64,000 nucleotides of DNA from Rikenellaceae bacterium (lineage in GTDB: Bacteria; Bacteroidota; Bacteroidia; Bacteroidales; Rikenellaceae). The DNA lies in the NCBI GenBank assembly GCA_015059945.1, contig SUZJ01000006.1, positions 62,001 to 126,000 on the forward strand, written 5' to 3'. Position numbers and translations under genes: made by a program. The notes beneath the pieces were generated by a model. That model did no database searches. It saw only the letters and a list, made by a program, of their open reading frames with translations, and was not told where the DNA came from. Below, in pieces: positions 56,431 to 64,000 of this stretch. Position 1 is the first letter of the stretch. Each line of letters opens with the position of its first letter.

Positions 56431-56483
56431 AAACTCTACAATACCTCTACAAACGACATTTTGTGCGTAAATGTATTTGTGAT

Positions 56484-56516: not shown

Positions 56517-56577
56517 ATCGCAGGTGGGTGGTGCTACTCTACAAGCTGGAATTGTGGCACTACAACCAACTTTTTTA

Positions 56578-56595
56578 CTATCTTTGTAAAGATAG
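56578..56595 (+). promoter_or_regulatory. Promoter of the phosphate-themed cluster with 8-2-8 palindrome
   Basis: The -7 box TATCTTTG (56579-56586) is embedded in the perfect inverted repeat CTATCTTT-GT-AAAGATAG (56578-56595), 26 nt before the DUF47 gene. A protein bound there would block the promoter; the HTH protein encoded two genes on is a natural candidate (inference). Confidence 0.65.
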
Positions 56596-56620: not shown

Positions 56621-57271
56621 ATGCTTTTCAGGAATAAAAAGGCCGATATTTTGGTCGAAAACATCGACAAGTTTTTCAACACTATCGATAGCGCACTGCT
56701 GGTCTTTAAGGATGGTGTTCGCAACTATCTATACTCGAATACCGAGGCCTTTAACGAAAATCTGCAAACAATGTCACACCTGGCTACCGAGGCTGCAATG
56801 TTGCGTCGTACGGTAGAGAACGACCTCTATACCCAGACCGCTCTGGTGCGTTCGAGGGGCGATATTATGCGCCTGCTCGAAAAGATGGGGCATATTGCAA
56901 TAACGCTCAATGACAGCTTGTTGCAGTTTGAAATCGAAAACCCGTTTGTGCCTGCCGAGCTGAATAACGATTTTCTGAAATTGACCGAACTATCGACTCT
57001 GGCGGTAGAGACGGCTCTGCCCTCGGCTAAGGCCTATTTCCGTGCCCCCGAAGATGTGGCCGAGAAGATTCAGAGGGTATATTTCTATGAGAGCGAAACG
57101 AACAAGTGTGCCCAGGCCATTAAGCGCAAGGTGTTCCACGAGATGATGAATATCAAGTTGAGCGAAAAGTTCCACCTTCGTTACTTTGCTCTGCATATCG
57201 AAAACCTGTCGGATGCCGCAGTGAGCGTGGCCGACCAGCTGTCGGTTATGGCCATTAAACGCAATTTTTAG
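56621..57271 (+). CDS. DUF47 (PhoU-like) phosphate-permease partner
   Basis: The protein has 216 residues from the ATG at 56621, the size of the DUF47/TIGR00153 family. It is all-helical: FRNKKADILVENIDKFFNTID at the start, FKDGVRNYLYSN, then RRTVENDLY and LLEKMGHIAITLND, and MNIKLSEKFHLRYFALHIE near the end, as in two PhoU-type three-helix bundles. DUF47 proteins are typically encoded next to PiT phosphate permeases and act as their cytoplasmic regulators. The next gene, 27 nt on, encodes a PiT-like protein with a DNA-binding tail, which suggests a signalling couple. Confidence 0.85.
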   Translation: MLFRNKKADILVENIDKFFNTIDSALLVFKDGVRNYLYSNTEAFNENLQTMSHLATEAAMLRRTVENDLYTQTALVRSRGDIMRLLEKMGHIAITLNDSLLQFEIENPFVPAELNNDFLKLTELSTLAVETALPSAKAYFRAPEDVAEKIQRVYFYESETNKCAQAIKRKVFHEMMNIKLSEKFHLRYFALHIENLSDAAVSVADQLSVMAIKRNF

Positions 57272-57298: not shown

Positions 57299-58921
57299 AT
57301 GAACATTGCCTTGTCAGTACTCGTTATTGTTGTGATTCTCTGGTGGTTACTCGCCAGGGAGTTGCCTGTGCTGTTTGGGGCTTTGGTATCGACCGGGGCA
57401 CTCAAACGCAACAAGTTCGATGTGTTGGTGGGGGTGGTTGTTGTGGCTGCCATTGTTGCAGGGCTGATGTTGCCCCTCTATGGTCATCTGACGGCTACCT
57501 ATTCGCCTATGCCGAGCAGCCTGCTGGTGGTGGTTGTGGTTTTGGCTTTTGGAGTGGTGCTGCTGTTGGAGCGACTGGGGACAATGCCCTCGCTGATGGT
57601 GGCTCTACTGGCGATGGTCGAGTGTTATAGGGTGCTGAATGTAGACGGTGCTGCGATTGACTATAAATTGTTGATTAGCTGGTGTGTAGCCCCTGTGATG
57701 TCGGCTCTGCTGTCGGCTCTGCTCTATTGGGTGAATAGGGTGGGCTTTGGTAAGTCGCACCTTCACATCATCAAGCACGCGGGCTACCTGCGCTATGTCG
57801 TGATTTTAGGCATTGCGCTGGCGGCTGCGGCAGTGGGGCTCAACTGTGGCCCTGTGTTGGTGTGGCTCACCGGAGGAGCGGTATATAACGGTATCGGAGT
57901 AGGCATAGTGGCAGTGGCCTTTGTGGCTCTGTTTGTGCTGCTTAGGAAGGCTATACATAAGCAGGTCGATGCTAATGCCGAGCACTACCTCGACTTCTCG
58001 AGTCAGGCGGTGTGTGCCATTTGCTATGCTGCATCTACTACACTGCTGCTCTTCTCGACCAGTGCGGTGGAGGTTGTGGGACTGAGGCCCACTCCTCTGG
58101 GCGTTGCCTCGCCTCTGTATGGTGCAATGGTGGGCGTGGCTCTGGTTAGGCGCAGGGCTATGTATGAGGGTGGTACGATTGGCCGAGTGGCTGTGGGTGT
58201 GGTGGTAACACCCTTGCTGTCAATGGCTTGCTACTACCTGCTGTCGTCGTTGTTCAGCGATGAAGTTATGGCCAACGACCTGTGGAACGCTACTATTGTG
58301 GTGATATTGCTGCTGTTGGGCCTGTTGGTTGTGTTTGCCCGCTATGTGCGCAAGCAGGAGAGTCTGAAACAGTCTACACGCAAACTGCTGCTGAGCCAGC
58401 AACAACAGCTTTTCGAGAACCAAAAGGCGCTCAACGACCTCGAATTGAAGGCTATCTTGGCCGAAAATCAGAGCCTTCACGGCACATTGGAACTGAAACG
58501 CAAAGAGATTGTAAATGTGGCACTTGGCATTAGCGAGCAGAAGGAGTTTTTGGAGATGCTGGCCGAGAAGGTGAGGGTGGCAGCCAAGAGTTCGAGCAGC
58601 GAGGCCAAAGACAAGATAATTGCCGAGTTGCAGAACGACCTGAGTCAGCGCATCAACTCATCGAGCGAGATTGACGAGTTCTACGCTCAGGCCGAGCAGT
58701 TGCACAAAGATTTTAGTGTCAAATTGACCGAGGAGTTCCCCCACCTTACAACCTCCGAGCGCCGACTGGCTACGCTGTTGCGACTGGGCTTCTCGTCGAA
58801 GTACATCGCTACGCTTATGAACATCTCGCCCAAGAGCGTGGAGATAAGCCGCTACCGACTGCGCCAAAAACTGGGCTTGCAGAAGGGCGACAACCTGATA
58901 AATTTCATAAAATCAATTTAA
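57299..58921 (+). CDS. PiT-like membrane domain fused to coiled coil and LuxR-type HTH
   Basis: The protein has 540 residues. Residues 1-350 have about eight to ten hydrophobic helices whose text follows a PiT permease in two halves (RELPVLFGALVSTGALKRN; GTMPSLMVALLAMVECYRV ... ISWCVAPVMSALLSALLYWV; TPLGVASPLYGAMVGVALV). The PiT signature motifs with Asn-Asp and Ala-Asn are not recognisable, so transport is doubtful. Residues ~350-480 form a charged coiled coil (SQQQQLFENQKALNDLELKA). Residues 483-540 are a LuxR-type HTH (LTTSERRLATLLRLGFSSKY, NISPKSVEISRYRLRQKLGL). It is probably a membrane-bound phosphate-sensing regulator; no phospho-receiver is present. Confidence 0.82.
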   Translation: MNIALSVLVIVVILWWLLARELPVLFGALVSTGALKRNKFDVLVGVVVVAAIVAGLMLPLYGHLTATYSPMPSSLLVVVVVLAFGVVLLLERLGTMPSLMVALLAMVECYRVLNVDGAAIDYKLLISWCVAPVMSALLSALLYWVNRVGFGKSHLHIIKHAGYLRYVVILGIALAAAAVGLNCGPVLVWLTGGAVYNGIGVGIVAVAFVALFVLLRKAIHKQVDANAEHYLDFSSQAVCAICYAASTTLLLFSTSAVEVVGLRPTPLGVASPLYGAMVGVALVRRRAMYEGGTIGRVAVGVVVTPLLSMACYYLLSSLFSDEVMANDLWNATIVVILLLLGLLVVFARYVRKQESLKQSTRKLLLSQQQQLFENQKALNDLELKAILAENQSLHGTLELKRKEIVNVALGISEQKEFLEMLAEKVRVAAKSSSSEAKDKIIAELQNDLSQRINSSSEIDEFYAQAEQLHKDFSVKLTEEFPHLTTSERRLATLLRLGFSSKYIATLMNISPKSVEISRYRLRQKLGLQKGDNLINFIKSI

Positions 58922-58959: not shown

Positions 58960-60366
58960 ATGAAAAAGTTTTTACTTATTGCAGCCGTAGCTATCGTATC
59001 GATTTGCGGAGCACAGGCACAAGAGGCCGAGGTTACCTACAACCAGTATGGTCAGAAAGTTACTTCGCTTCCTATTAAGGCACAGGTACAGGACGGTATC
59101 TTGGTTTTCCAGAACAAAGATGCAGGCTACAAGATGTGGTTTGACGTTCGCGTTCAGGGCGATGCAGCCGTTTACTTTGGCTACGACAAAAACCTCACCC
59201 AGATTGGTAACGGTATGAGCTTCCGCCGTACCCGTTTTGCCGTTAAGACCCAGATTAACAAAGATTGGTATGCCGAGTTGGATACCGACTGGTCGAGCGG
59301 TATTGTTGAGCTGAAAGATGCAATTTTGCAGTACGATGGTATTGAGAACTTGCAGATCAAGATGGGTAACTTCAAGGAGAACTTCTCGATTCAGCGTAAC
59401 TCAACCAGCCGCTACCTGCTCTTTATGGAGCGTGCAATGGTTACCTACTTGGCTCCCTCGCGCCATATGGGTGTAAACTTCCGTTACAGCACCCCCGCAC
59501 TGTGGGCTTCGTTTGGCGTTTTTGGTCCCGAGATCAAAGGTGCCGAGGAGCAGACCGCAATGGAGGATGGTAACAAAGACTACGGTCTGGATGCAGGTTT
59601 GAGCTACACCGGTAAACTGGTATGGCGCCCTCTGCACAAGATGGACAACGGCTCGTTGCACATTGGTGCCGCTGTTTCGTACCGCGAGCCTAAGGTGACT
59701 TCGACCGACGGTTACAACGCTATCCGCTATAGCACCCGTAACTCCACGAGCATCAACCGTAAGAAATTCCTCGATACCGATGCTATTCCTTACCTCGACC
59801 ACGAACTGTTGTGGACTGTTGAGCTCGCAGGTCACTATGAGTCTCTCCGCTATGAGGCTGCTTACATTTCGCGTCAGGCATTCATTGATGTAGAGAAGAA
59901 CCCTCAGGGCCAAGACCTTAGACCCGCAAGCGGTTGGTATGTTCAGGCAGGTTATATGCTCTTTGGTGGCAAACAGAACTACGATGCAGGTGGTGCAAAA
60001 TACACCCGTTGCACTCGCGGTAAAGACTGGGGTGATGTGGAGCTTGCAGCCCGTATCGACCAGATTAACCTGAACCTGAACAGATACTATATGGGTGGCT
60101 CGGCATTGCAGTACGCTCTGGGTATCAACTACTACCCAATTGAGAACGTGAAGTTTATGATCAACTACCAATTTGCAGACAACGATATCTTTGCAAATGG
60201 TAAAGGCGCGCAAGATGGTACCGACAAGACCGCTAAAGGTCCCTACCGCACCGGTTACGATGCAGACGGCAATGTTACCTATTTCCCTGCAAATGTTGAT
60301 AAAACCAAAGGTGCAAATGGTGTCGACTTCCATATGATTTCGTGCCGTTTCCAGGTTGCATTCTAA
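58960..60366 (+). CDS. OprO/OprP-type phosphate-selective porin
   Basis: The protein has 468 residues with a signal peptide ending at CGAQAQ. The Porin_O_P pattern is present: GNGMSFRRTRFAVKTQINKD, WYAELDTDW, then alternating strands with SGWYVQAGYMLF near residue 325 and NVKFMINYQFADNDI near the C-terminus, ending in FHMISCRFQVAF. It should form an outer-membrane channel with preference for phosphate or polyphosphate. It lies 38 nt after the PiT-HTH gene, with an A/C-rich leader, and its codons (GGT, CGT, GTT, AAC) point to high expression. Confidence 0.88.
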   Translation: MKKFLLIAAVAIVSICGAQAQEAEVTYNQYGQKVTSLPIKAQVQDGILVFQNKDAGYKMWFDVRVQGDAAVYFGYDKNLTQIGNGMSFRRTRFAVKTQINKDWYAELDTDWSSGIVELKDAILQYDGIENLQIKMGNFKENFSIQRNSTSRYLLFMERAMVTYLAPSRHMGVNFRYSTPALWASFGVFGPEIKGAEEQTAMEDGNKDYGLDAGLSYTGKLVWRPLHKMDNGSLHIGAAVSYREPKVTSTDGYNAIRYSTRNSTSINRKKFLDTDAIPYLDHELLWTVELAGHYESLRYEAAYISRQAFIDVEKNPQGQDLRPASGWYVQAGYMLFGGKQNYDAGGAKYTRCTRGKDWGDVELAARIDQINLNLNRYYMGGSALQYALGINYYPIENVKFMINYQFADNDIFANGKGAQDGTDKTAKGPYRTGYDADGNVTYFPANVDKTKGANGVDFHMISCRFQVAF

Positions 60367-60556: not shown

Positions 60557-61180
60557 ATGAAAAAACTTTTTGTATTTGCAGCTATGGCTGCTATGGCTCT
60601 CACTTCGTGTGACAATAGCGACGATTTAGGTGTAACCGGTGGTGACGACTACAATGTAGGCGTTAAGGGTATCGTTCTGAACGAGCTTTCGGGTGCCGAC
60701 AAATTCATTGAGCTCTACAACACTACCGATGCTGAGGTTTCGCTCAGGGAGGTTTATCTCGTTAAGTACGACAGTACCAAAGATGGTGGCAAGAGCACCA
60801 CTTGGACCGGCGCTAAGGATATGGTTATCCCCGCTAAAGGTTATGTAGTTCTGGAGAGCTCGGACTTGGCTGACGAGGCTGAGGGTGGCGATCCTAACTA
60901 TGCTTACGAGAGCGAGAACCACGTTTTCAAAGGTGGTCTGTCGGGTAAGAAGAACGTATTCATCGAGCTCTACAATGCTAAGGATGAGAAGTTGAGCGAG
61001 TTCAAACGTGGCGAAGAGGGCGCAGGTTGGAACCAGGTAAGCGGCTTCACCAACAACAAGAAGGCTACCTTCTCGCGCGTACCCAACGGTACCGGTGATT
61101 GGGCATATGCAGCTCCCACCAAAGGCACTGCCAATGGTGAGAAGACCGGTGACATCGAGCAGACCCCCGTTGCAGAGTAA
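60557..61180 (+). CDS. Lamin-tail-domain lipoprotein
   Basis: The protein has 207 residues. The lipobox is MALTSC (Cys18). A lamin-tail Ig fold covers ~37-185 (GIVLNELSGADKFIELYNT, then VSLREVYLVKYD, IPAKGYVVLESSD, and ATFSRVPNGTGDWAY). In bacteria this domain is attached to surface nucleases, phosphatases and other exported enzymes, usually as a binding module; here it stands alone. A weak TACTTTCG box lies ~90 nt upstream. Its codons are strongly biased to highly expressed types. It may bind DNA or a phosphate-rich ligand outside the cell (inference). Confidence 0.85.
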   Translation: MKKLFVFAAMAAMALTSCDNSDDLGVTGGDDYNVGVKGIVLNELSGADKFIELYNTTDAEVSLREVYLVKYDSTKDGGKSTTWTGAKDMVIPAKGYVVLESSDLADEAEGGDPNYAYESENHVFKGGLSGKKNVFIELYNAKDEKLSEFKRGEEGAGWNQVSGFTNNKKATFSRVPNGTGDWAYAAPTKGTANGEKTGDIEQTPVAE

Positions 61181-61293: not shown

Positions 61294-61938
61294 ATGTCGA
61301 AAGAGAAAATGGAGATTGGAGCAATCTCGAAACCCCGTTTTGAGTTCCGCTCCTTCGGTCAGAACTTCGATGAGGCTCACGCCCGTATGGCTCGCCTGTC
61401 GGTGCCCGTGCCCGAGAAAGTATGGCGTCGTACCAGCGACGAGATTTACATCATCAGCCGCGCAAACGACATCAACAACACCAAAATCCGCGACGGTAAG
61501 ATGGATATCAAAACCTATGTTCAGACCGTAGACGGCTTGGAGCAGTGGAATCCCCTGATGAAGGGCGAGTTCCCCATCTCGCGCGAGGTTTTGGAGCAGG
61601 AGGTTTTCCCCGCCTTTATGGTAGAGATGCCCGCTCTGGACAAAGATACCTACACCTTTGAGGAGTTCCTCGCAATGGTAGAGGCCAACAAAGACCTCGC
61701 CGCTGTAAGGGTACACAAAGAGAGGTTCGGTTATATGGTTAACGACACCATCTGCGAGGTTGGTAACGTGCTTATCAACGGTGCAAAGGTTGTTACCATC
61801 AACTCGGAGTCGACCGAGATCGAGGATATCAAAAAGACCATCGCCGACTGCAAATTGGAGGGCGTAGAGAACATCAACTACCTGCAGGCTATCAAGCGCG
61901 TAATCGGTATGACCAAAAAACCCCTTGCAAACGAGTAA
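61294..61938 (+). CDS. CYTH-like protein (divergent)
   Basis: The protein has 214 residues with no signal peptide. Its strands follow a CYTH tunnel enzyme: RFEFRSFG at the start where ExExR/K is expected, EIYIISRAND, KIRDGKMDIKTYVQ (the usual arginine and the xxLK strand), AVRVHKERFGYMV, and the closing CEVGNV...TINSEST pattern. The match is weak and from memory, so treat it as a hypothesis. It starts 4 nt before a clear CYTH gene and is co-transcribed with it. Confidence 0.55.
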   Translation: MSKEKMEIGAISKPRFEFRSFGQNFDEAHARMARLSVPVPEKVWRRTSDEIYIISRANDINNTKIRDGKMDIKTYVQTVDGLEQWNPLMKGEFPISREVLEQEVFPAFMVEMPALDKDTYTFEEFLAMVEANKDLAAVRVHKERFGYMVNDTICEVGNVLINGAKVVTINSESTEIEDIKKTIADCKLEGVENINYLQAIKRVIGMTKKPLANE

Positions 61939-61942
61939 GACT

Positions 61943-62413
61943 ATGGCACAGGAAATTGAAAGGAAATTTTTGGTTGCAGGCGAGTTTAAGTCGCTGGCCA
62001 AAAAGGCAACCCGCATCACCCAGGGCTACCTCTCGTCGGTGCCCGAGCGCACTGTTCGCGTGAGGATCAAAGGCGACAAGGGCTTTATCACCATCAAAGG
62101 TATCGGCTCGGCAAGTGGTGCCAGCCGCTATGAGTGGGAGAAAGAGATTCCCGTAGCTGAGGTTGAGGAGCTGCTGAAAATTTGCGAGCCCGGTGTTATC
62201 GACAAAACCCGCTACTTGGTAGAGGCCGGTGAGCACACCTACGAGGTAGACGAGTTCTATGGCGACAACGAGGGCCTGACTGTAGCAGAGGTTGAGCTTT
62301 CGTCGGAGGAGGAAGCCTTCGTTAAACCCGAGTGGTTGGGCGATGAGGTTACCGGCGACGTTAAGTACTACAACTCGATGCTGATGAAAAACCCCTACAA
62401 AAACTGGAAATAG
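61943..62413 (+). CDS. CYTH-domain protein (triphosphate tunnel metalloenzyme)
   Basis: The protein has 156 residues from the ATG at 61943, the size of single-domain bacterial CYTH enzymes. The signature EIERKFLV opens it, followed by QGYLSSVPERTVRVRIKGDK, TIKGIG, YEWEKEIPV, DKTRYLVE, YEVDEFYGDNEGLTVAEVEL and WLGDEVTGDVKYYNSML. The acidic and basic residues that line the tunnel are in place. Family members hydrolyse triphosphates such as PPPi or ATP, and some make cAMP or polyphosphate. The gene 4 nt upstream is a probable divergent sister. Confidence 0.88.
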   Translation: MAQEIERKFLVAGEFKSLAKKATRITQGYLSSVPERTVRVRIKGDKGFITIKGIGSASGASRYEWEKEIPVAEVEELLKICEPGVIDKTRYLVEAGEHTYEVDEFYGDNEGLTVAEVELSSEEEAFVKPEWLGDEVTGDVKYYNSMLMKNPYKNWK

Positions 62414-62589: not shown

Positions 62590-64000
62590 ATGGCTGAAAC
62601 TACTAATTTGAATCCCGAAGAGGAGCAGGTGTTCGATCCACTGGATATGAACAACTATAAGGTCGAGAAGCTGCCCAAGATGGAGAAGAGCGGCTTTGAG
62701 AAGTGGATGGCACGACTGGGTGGCCCACTGGCTATATTGGTCTTTGTGCTTATCTATTGGGTGCTCGACATCCCATTCTTGAACGATATTACCGAGGAGA
62801 GCCTGACGGGCGCCAAGGCCATAAAGAGGCTTGGCGAGGTTGGCTTGGCCGACTTTATCCGCAGCAACTACGCTATGCTGGCAATCTTTGCAGCGGCTAT
62901 TGTGCTGTGGGTTAGCGAGGCTATTCCCAACTACCTCACCTCGCTAATGCTCATTCTGGGCGTGGTGCTGATGAACGTAATGCCCCAGAAGGAGGCCTTT
63001 GCACAGTTGGGCCATCCCGTTATGTGGCTCAATATCTTGTCGTTTGTGCTGGCAAGTATGCTGGTTAAAACCCGCGTGGCTAAGAGGTTTGCGCTCTGGT
63101 TTGTGCTCAGGTTTGGCAAGAATGCAAGTGGTATTTTCTTTAGCTTCATAATTATCAACCTGGTGCTGTCGATGTTTATCTCGGCCACTACGGTTAAGGC
63201 TACCATCCTGCTGCCAATCTTTATGGTTGTGGCTGCAATCTATGGCGCAAGCAATGGCGAGCGTAACAACTTTGGCCGTAACTTGGTGCTGCAAAACTTG
63301 TTCCAGGTGAATATCGGTGCTAGTGGCTTTATGACCGGTTCGGGTGCCAACCTGCTGGCTGTGTCGATTATCGCAGGTGCAGTGGGTGGTTATAGCATCT
63401 CTTATTCCGACTGGCTGTCTGCAGCTCTGCCTCTGGCTCTGCTGCTGCTCTTCTTGGGCTGGTTTGTGGGTGTGAAGGTTATCTTCCCCCTGAAAAAAGA
63501 GGAGCAGAAACCCCAGATTGAGGGTGGTATGGAGCGCCTGCGCCAAGAGCTCAAAGCTATGGGCAAGGTGTCGTTCGACGAGATTAAGGCGGTGCTGGTG
63601 TTTGTGGGCGTACTGCTGCTGTGGGTTACCAAGAACTGGCACGGAATAGACGAAACCACCGTTGCATTTATCGGTGCTGTGGTGGCGCTGATGCCCGGCA
63701 TTGGCATTGTTAAGTGGAACGATGTGGATATCCCTTGGCACCTGATGCTCTTCTCGGCTGGTGCTTATGTGCTTGGCTCGGGACTGAATGCTACCGACCT
63801 GCACGTTACACTGGTAGATACCGTATTTGATAGTCTGGGCATTACCGATAACACCCCCTACTGGGTGCTCTATATTGTGCTTACGGGCTTGATGCTGCTG
63901 AGTGCGCTGCTCTTTTCGAGCAAGAATATGCGTACTATGATATTTGTGCCTATTGCTATTGCTACGGCCCAGAGGTTTGGCTACCCGATTATGAGCCTTG
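62590..64000 (+). CDS. SLC13/DASS-family anion permease (3' end beyond window)
   Basis: The first 470 codons are present and no stop is reached. A ~45-residue cytoplasmic N-terminus (MAETTNLNPEEEQVFDPLDM) precedes about ten membrane segments. Family text includes LWVSEAIPNYLTSLMLILGV, the SATTVKATILLPIFMV Ser-rich loop, ASGFMTGSGANLLAVSII, PWHLMLFSAGAYVLGSGL and SSKNMRTMIFVPIAI. SLC13-type carriers move dicarboxylates, citrate, sulfate or, in some eukaryotic relatives, phosphate with Na+. The substrate here is open; the cluster context makes a phosphate-linked anion worth testing. Confidence 0.88.
   Translation, partial: MAETTNLNPEEEQVFDPLDMNNYKVEKLPKMEKSGFEKWMARLGGPLAILVFVLIYWVLDIPFLNDITEESLTGAKAIKRLGEVGLADFIRSNYAMLAIFAAAIVLWVSEAIPNYLTSLMLILGVVLMNVMPQKEAFAQLGHPVMWLNILSFVLASMLVKTRVAKRFALWFVLRFGKNASGIFFSFIIINLVLSMFISATTVKATILLPIFMVVAAIYGASNGERNNFGRNLVLQNLFQVNIGASGFMTGSGANLLAVSIIAGAVGGYSISYSDWLSAALPLALLLLFLGWFVGVKVIFPLKKEEQKPQIEGGMERLRQELKAMGKVSFDEIKAVLVFVGVLLLWVTKNWHGIDETTVAFIGAVVALMPGIGIVKWNDVDIPWHLMLFSAGAYVLGSGLNATDLHVTLVDTVFDSLGITDNTPYWVLYIVLTGLMLLSALLFSSKNMRTMIFVPIAIATAQRFGYPIMSL

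Follow-up and report, generated by a model that had tools for sequence, protein, structure and literature searches.

Does a protein that joins a membrane domain resembling PiT phosphate permeases to a LuxR-type DNA-binding domain carry phosphate, or does it act on genes from the membrane? The question is raised by one gene of the window, the whole 64 kb stretch of Rikenellaceae DNA analysed here. Phosphate sensing outside the Pst-PhoU-PhoR-PhoB pathway is poorly understood, and we know of no clear job for the DUF47 proteins, one of which is encoded beside this gene. As far as titles and abstract openings in a largely open-access literature go, we found no description of a PiT-HTH fusion among the matches listed. 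Our main reading, which we consider fairly probable, is that a PiT phosphate permease gave rise to the encoded protein, a one-component regulator that sits in the membrane and controls the cluster to which its gene belongs. Judged from sequence comparisons, the fused protein is probably a switch for its own cluster in gut Bacteroidales, and in the window's lineage its transporter half seems to serve only as a sensor. The relatives discussed below either keep an intact PiT part ('intact' members) or, like the window protein, have lost the substrate-loop motifs ('decayed' members).

The fused gene is one open frame with an ATG start and no internal stops, in which the membrane part and the HTH are read together; receiver and kinase domains are absent, and response-regulator models hit the protein at its HTH end only (Table 1). 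The GerE HTH (PF00196) scores 28.6 bits at residues 483-529, over the cut-off of 23.5, and the corresponding score of the intact fused member L044 is 19.9, under the same cut-off. Since the same in-frame fusion recurs in independent genomes, the joining of HTH and membrane domain described in the first-pass annotation stands. The match to PHO4 (PF01384) is weak (18.7 bits against a cut-off of 33.7, E 9e-4) and pairs residues 173-360 with profile positions 24-161, so that the protein's second half falls on the first half of the profile. The helix at residues 328-346 sits outside the PiT core, with no K/R and three D/E in the 30 residues before it and seven K/R and two D/E in the 30 after it. 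Of the further members tested, all four decayed ones and two core intact ones likewise have a higher positive charge behind this helix than ahead of it, an excess not seen in L085 and L088; these topology readings come from simple hydropathy and charge, without a topology program. PiT proteins have both termini outside, and the addition of one helix to such a protein would place the coiled coil and HTH in the cytoplasm.

Table 1. Features of the fused gene and its neighbourhood, in window coordinates.
Feature	Position	Strand	Basis or remark
Distal tandem CTACA sites	56436..56451	+	56436-56440 and 56447-56451, 11 bp apart
Proximal CTACA sites	56539..56564	+	56539-56543 and 56560-56564, 21 bp apart
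Probable Bacteroidota -7 promoter element TATCTTTG	56579..56586	+	Sequence and spacing; likeness to Bacteroidota consensus
DUF47 / PhoU_div protein	56621..57271	+	PF01865, E 5.7e-9; ends 27 bp upstream of fused gene
Fused gene	57299..58921	+	PiT-derived membrane domain, extra TM, coiled coil and LuxR-type HTH; 540 aa
Decayed PiT membrane domain	57299..58276	+	About residues 1-326; profile comparisons (hhalign, PDB sequences)
Extra transmembrane helix	58280..58336	+	Residues 328-346, positive stretch after; hydropathy and charge
Coiled coil	58337..58732	+	About residues 347-478; sequence and alignment A1, without a coiled-coil program
LuxR/GerE HTH	58745..58885	+	Residues 483-529; Pfam profile
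Porin_O_P outer-membrane porin	58960..60366	+	PF07396, E 5.8e-36; starts 38 bp downstream of fused gene
Lipoprotein with lamin tail domain (LTD)	60557..61180	+	PF00932, E 1.6e-9
Conserved 214-aa protein, no family	61294..61938	+	No Pfam/NCBIfam match
CYTH / triphosphate tunnel protein	61943..62413	+	PF01928, E 1.2e-15
DASS-family symporter, runs off window	62590..63999	+	TIGR00785, 201.5 bits; last gene of conserved neighbourhood

Because the window protein taken alone falls under the PHO4 cut-off, the PiT origin of its membrane domain is settled by its relatives. A profile of the decayed domains aligns with a profile of the intact fused domains at a probability of 99.4 (hhalign A2-A4, E 1.5e-21), and the intact fused domains align in turn with canonical PiTs (E 2.3e-21). 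The direct comparison of decayed domain and canonical PiT (A2-A3) is collinear over profile positions 3-319 (E 7.9e-5, probability 61), and a negative control with DASS, another transporter family, reached a probability of 0.7 only, over 76 columns. A search of PDB sequences with the decayed profile, taken to E 1, matches TmPiT 6l85 only (E 2.1e-4); its best stretch pairs the first half of the query with the chain's second half, an offset open to proteins built of two repeats. Intact fused members cover PHO4 end to end (positions 2 to 349 or 350; 192.9 bits for L044) and match TmPiT 6l85 at E 2.8e-22, or at E 1.9e-34 by profile. Thus, descent from PiT, proposed at first from the residue pattern, holds along the whole domain through a chain from decayed to intact fused to canonical PiT. 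The stretches then quoted as PiT-like do align with PiT repeats: PSLMVALL with VSTSQAIVGA, SWCVAPVM with SWVTGPIL, and TPLGVASPLYGAMVGV with the repeat loop PVSSTQVVVGAVIGI.

How widespread is the fusion? Within the order, 295 genomes were searched with the protein and 291 with PHO4, which together yielded 17 genomes with a fused gene besides the window's. A search of 200 genomes of the family yielded eight, the window's included, and close relatives among these include three Tidjanibacter MAGs. The set studied comprises 25 fused loci from 25 genomes, nine decayed and 16 with an intact PiT part, of which 14 are complete. The fused gene of L041 (G075) is broken, the adjoining DUF47 and porin genes being open, and this locus was used for its upstream region and neighbours only and kept out of alignments. 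That of L087 is cut by the contig end before the HTH; L087 was left out of the substrate-loop comparison and, with L055, out of the tree of coiled coil and HTH (CC-HTH). In 395 genomes sampled across the phylum, with three candidates scored per genome and few Bacteroidales among the matches listed, a second fusion was not found at E 1e-40; 12 genomes match by the PiT part alone and 14 by the CC-HTH alone. A different arrangement was seen in G012, G023, G137 and G227, where PHO4 matches lie inside frames of about 950-990 aa, apparent tandem PiT fusions by their sequence; in G012 and G227 two PHO4 matches stand side by side in equal-length frames.

Outside the window's kin, fused genes more often than not lack decay: 16 of the 25 fused loci keep the PiT loops. 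Fusion and decay, the two sequence elements behind the idea of a transporter turned sensor, are confirmed, and the idea is refined in its reach, the decay belonging to a minority of fused loci. A membrane-domain tree was rejected for placing the decayed clade on account of its long branches, and the CC-HTH tree, rooted on TPR-type proteins and taking in five of the nine decayed members, was used in its place. These five group together (96/94) inside a clade of 16 fused rows (100/100). Such nesting among intact fused proteins suggests that a transporter with a DNA-binding domain came first and that the pure sensor branched off later. Another three fused rows (L053, L085 and L086) fall outside the 16-row clade without resolved placement, and for this reason the tree does not establish a single origin of the fusion. 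Close unfused cousins were also found, in an order that the membrane tree does not resolve. One of them (L088:5244-6611, 455 aa) consists of PiT, linker and extra helix with no HTH, and looks like a form of the protein without its output domain.

The four substrate-loop motifs GANDAAN, STSQ, GANNIAN and SSTQ are replaced in all nine decayed members, so that the suspected loss of transport residues extends to every loop. The first loop is kept in 13 of the 14 intact members shown, and clearly related forms of the other three in all 14. The two halves of the protein have diverged to different extents: median identity is 39% in the membrane part and 97% in the HTH for five members of the window's genus, 24% and 77% for all nine decayed members, and 71% and 63% for ten intact members. 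Values of dN/dS, which are rough given high dS, are 0.17 for the membrane part and 0.017 for the CC-HTH of the pair L035/L036, 0.15 for the membrane part of L143/L144 (dS saturated), and 0.04 for that of the intact pair L038/L039; pairs with the window protein give higher membrane values, 0.26 and 0.45. By these estimates purifying selection still acts on the decayed membrane domain. One serine and one asparagine of the former loops, S98 and N182, are invariant in both the 17-row and the 9-row alignment.

These figures bear on what the membrane domain is for. If it were an anchor only, the signal entering through DUF47 or the coiled coil and the membrane part sensing nothing, one would expect much of the above: the loss of all four motifs in every decayed member, the gap between 24% and 77% median identity, and the higher ratios in pairs with the window protein. 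Such a domain sits less well with the purifying selection in L035/L036 and, with saturated dS, in L143/L144, or with the retention of S98 and N182, and we regard this alternative as unlikely, if worth keeping in mind. The alternatives weighed here overlap with the main reading, and the likelihoods we attach to them need not sum to one.

If the fused protein is a regulator, what does it regulate? The neighbourhood described at first pass, with DUF47 upstream and a porin downstream, is conserved and no chance arrangement. DUF47 directly precedes the fused gene in 25 of 25 loci (one with a broken gene, one with a contig-end cut), and a Porin_O_P gene follows in 21 of the 22 loci with sequence behind, L086 being the exception and L042, L087 and L122 ending too early to be counted. 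LTD proteins occur at the matching position in L037, L038, L085 and L142, and genes for the 214-aa, CYTH and DASS proteins are present in most fused loci whose sequence reaches there. The 214-aa protein, possibly a phosphate or polyphosphate enzyme, is 71-98% identical across 19 other fused loci; a relative of 35-37% identity is encoded near unfused clusters outside the order (L145, L146). Three of the 12 PiT-only matches from the phylum were read. L147 has DUF47 and PiT; L145 and L146 hold DUF47, PiT, porin, 214-aa, CYTH and DASS genes with the HTH absent, which suggests that the gene cluster probably predates the fusion.

Upstream of DUF47, CTACA sites occur on the coding strand in all 25 fused clusters. 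In the window, the distal pair is the sole match to CTACA-N6-CTACA in 64 kb (0.06 expected; at least one in 5 of 100 shuffles), and the probable -7 promoter element TATCTTTG, identified by its likeness to a Bacteroidota consensus, has its TTTG 23 bp downstream of where the proximal site starts. With CTATACA counted too, the 25 clusters contain 72 sites against 10.3 expected from shuffles, compared with 7 against 3.6 on the other strand. In 12 DUF47-PiT clusters that lack the HTH there are 2 sites against 1.7 expected, and the regions before 98 further genes in these loci hold 13 sites in 18,019 bp, or 0.18 per 250 bp against 2.9. Visual inspection of all fused loci, the same set as counted, first brought up the motif; a k-mer ranking upstream of fused DUF47, which provides an unbiased check, puts CTACA top among 5-mers and CTCTACA top among 7-mers. 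DUF47 start codons were assigned manually, with a possible error of a few codons at some loci. In five genomes with both a fused and an unfused DUF47 gene (G116, G134, G179, G224, G271), the fused one has 3, 2, 4, 2 and 2 sites and the unfused one none in any of the five, and CTACA sites are likewise absent upstream of DUF47 in L088. Phylogeny, too, separates fused from unfused loci.

The sites are phased along the helix. Of 47 spacings between neighbouring sites, 32 are 11, 21-22, 32-33, 41-43 or 54-56 bp. With the period scanned and with site pairs inside one cluster not independent, R is 0.84 at 10.3 bp in the nine decayed clusters and 0.79 at 10.9 bp in all 16 intact ones; without L039, L047 and L144 (left out across all clusters, decayed too) the intact value was 0.89, falling to 0.79 on all. 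Pooling the 25 clusters lowers R to 0.43, the intact and decayed sets having different periods. In 12 of the 16 intact clusters the likely promoter TTTG follows the start of the nearest site by 60-72 bp; in the other four the distance is 47, 93 or 125 bp, or there is none. At 60-72 bp the site would be outside the transcript, positioned as for an activator. The earlier proposal that the protein regulates genes thus gains independent support from a site array linked to the HTH; gene control itself, and phosphate sensing, we infer.

Several wider roles for the motif were considered and rejected. A regulon beyond the cluster found no footing, the extra exact hits that were read lying at gene 3' ends (adk), in coding sequence, or in intergenic DNA close to hairpins, and in a 40-genome search the one-mismatch tandem pattern was not above its backward control in most genomes outside the window's genus. 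The upstream region of DASS was dropped as a target: one of its two counted sites is the CYTH coding end, and the relatives shown have no array. Exclusion of Pst by the fused gene was not clean either, because 11 unfused genomes are also without PstS, which was found in none of six fused and 6 of 17 unfused genomes of the genus (several incomplete). Upstream regions of ordinary PiT genes, readable in 7 of 17 loci, have single sites in fused and unfused genomes alike. Tandem CTCTACAA arrays were seen in the window's genus near positions 4953 of L172, 4549 of L174, 5580 of L176 and 1500 of L246, lying between genes, at 3' ends or beside hairpins, and in some fusion-free genomes. That arrays might be exclusive to fused members of the genus was suggested by 0 exact hits in six unfused genomes and refuted by 2 of 11 further unfused genomes that carry them. 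With arrays at promoterless places and in those two genomes, the CTACAA motif is not exclusive to the fused protein.

Could the CTACAA sites, then, belong to another regulator such as PhoB, with the fused HTH acting elsewhere or not at all? PhoB sites (Pho boxes) tend to be 11-bp direct repeats, which the tandem sites resemble, and the window genome encodes one OmpR-type regulator that by eye resembles PhoB; arrays in genomes that have no fusion would fit the same idea. Against this, the 12 HTH-less DUF47-PiT clusters lack an excess, the five genomes with both kinds of DUF47 gene have sites only at the fused one, and in the fused genomes the pstS upstream regions, of which 5 of 10 were readable, hold 1 site in all, a small sample. 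We consider ownership by another regulator unlikely.

It is also conceivable that the window protein still transports phosphate and that its HTH is merely accessory, as its PiT ancestry and the loops kept by intact relatives might suggest. Against this, its four loop motifs are replaced, as in every decayed member, and a separate ordinary PiT is encoded in all 16 genomes of the family checked (in the window genome one of 743 aa, on another contig), making continued transport very improbable. That the membrane part is an unrelated 7TM-type sensor domain, or that the HTH was joined through a sequencing error alone, is scarcely credible: the window protein by itself stays under the PHO4 cut-off and, at E 0.1, the profile misses four of the nine decayed members, but two pass (L036 with 53.3 bits, L142 with 38.2) and three are sub-threshold, the profile match to PiT is collinear, and the in-frame fusion recurs in independent genomes.

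We return to the reading of the fused protein as a one-component regulator of its own cluster. From the domain make-up, descent, decay, conserved cluster and HTH-linked sites, the following history and mechanism can be pictured. A complete permease would have gained one extra helix, bringing its C-terminus to the cytoplasm, and then a coiled coil and a LuxR-type HTH. The resulting protein could transport phosphate and also act on DNA, presumably still the state of most fused relatives read. In the window's lineage the substrate loops would then have decayed, leaving the membrane part as a sensor only. The coiled coil may pair the HTHs, and we infer that the protein binds the phased CTACAA sites upstream of the DUF47 promoter, with phosphate as the signal and activation under phosphate limitation. 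The controlled cluster would comprise DUF47, the fused gene itself, the porin and the lipoprotein, and probably those that follow. The DUF47 partner, presumably in contact with the membrane domain, would most likely report phosphate status to it. Given the ordinary 743-aa PiT elsewhere in the genome, the phosphate role of the fused protein rests on descent and neighbours. The weaker phasing over all clusters and the dN/dS of pairs with the window protein temper our confidence in this main reading.

More broadly, we lean, if narrowly, towards regarding these proteins as a phosphate transceptor family: complete permeases would bear a DNA-binding domain and act through it on a phased operator array of their own, with neither kinase nor response regulator. 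The family would also preserve a series, from plain PiT through PiT with an extra helix and PiT-HTH to decayed PiT-HTH, of a transporter turning into a pure sensor. The transceptor architecture, a transport-type domain with an output domain, is found in the intact relatives and not in the window protein. If this is true, transporter and transcription would be coupled in one bacterial polypeptide without a phosphorelay, and DUF47, permease and promoter would be tied together in one small unit. The occurrence of both intact and decayed forms bears on whether transport itself is the signal. What is new beyond the first-pass annotation is the history of fusion followed by decay, and the CTACA site array.

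How does this design compare with known systems? The membrane domain is homologous to the PiT / SLC20 permeases (PF01384; TmPiT 6l85), which intact relatives match at full length; unlike these permeases, fused proteins add the extra helix, coiled coil and HTH, and the window's lineage has lost the four loop motifs. The output module is of the type found in Bacteroidota TPR-TM-coiled coil-LuxR proteins (29-40% identity in the CC-HTH to L050, L051, L052 and L054), whose N-terminal part has no similarity to the permease and reads by eye as TPR repeats. Yeast Snf3 and Rgt2 are transporter relatives that lost transport and became sensors, as the window protein would have; to our knowledge, and unlike the window protein, they carry no DNA-binding domain. 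CadC and ToxR are membrane one-component regulators. We know of no transporter among the membrane parts of BcrR-, CadC- or ToxR-type regulators, whereas that of the fused protein derives from one. BcrR shares the one-component layout of the window protein, with membrane and DNA-binding domains in one protein and no phosphorelay (PMC3968067). The fused protein differs from these regulators in where its membrane part came from. Eggerthella has multi-helix LuxR regulators. The accessible portion of one paper in which we sought them makes no mention of LuxR (PMC7028382). CbrA of Pseudomonas, an SLC5 transporter-histidine kinase called a rare transceptor (PMC13022988), likewise combines a transporter domain and a signalling output in one protein. 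CbrA draws its membrane part from a different transporter family and relays its signal by way of a kinase and a response regulator, whereas the fused PiT carries its own DNA-binding domain.
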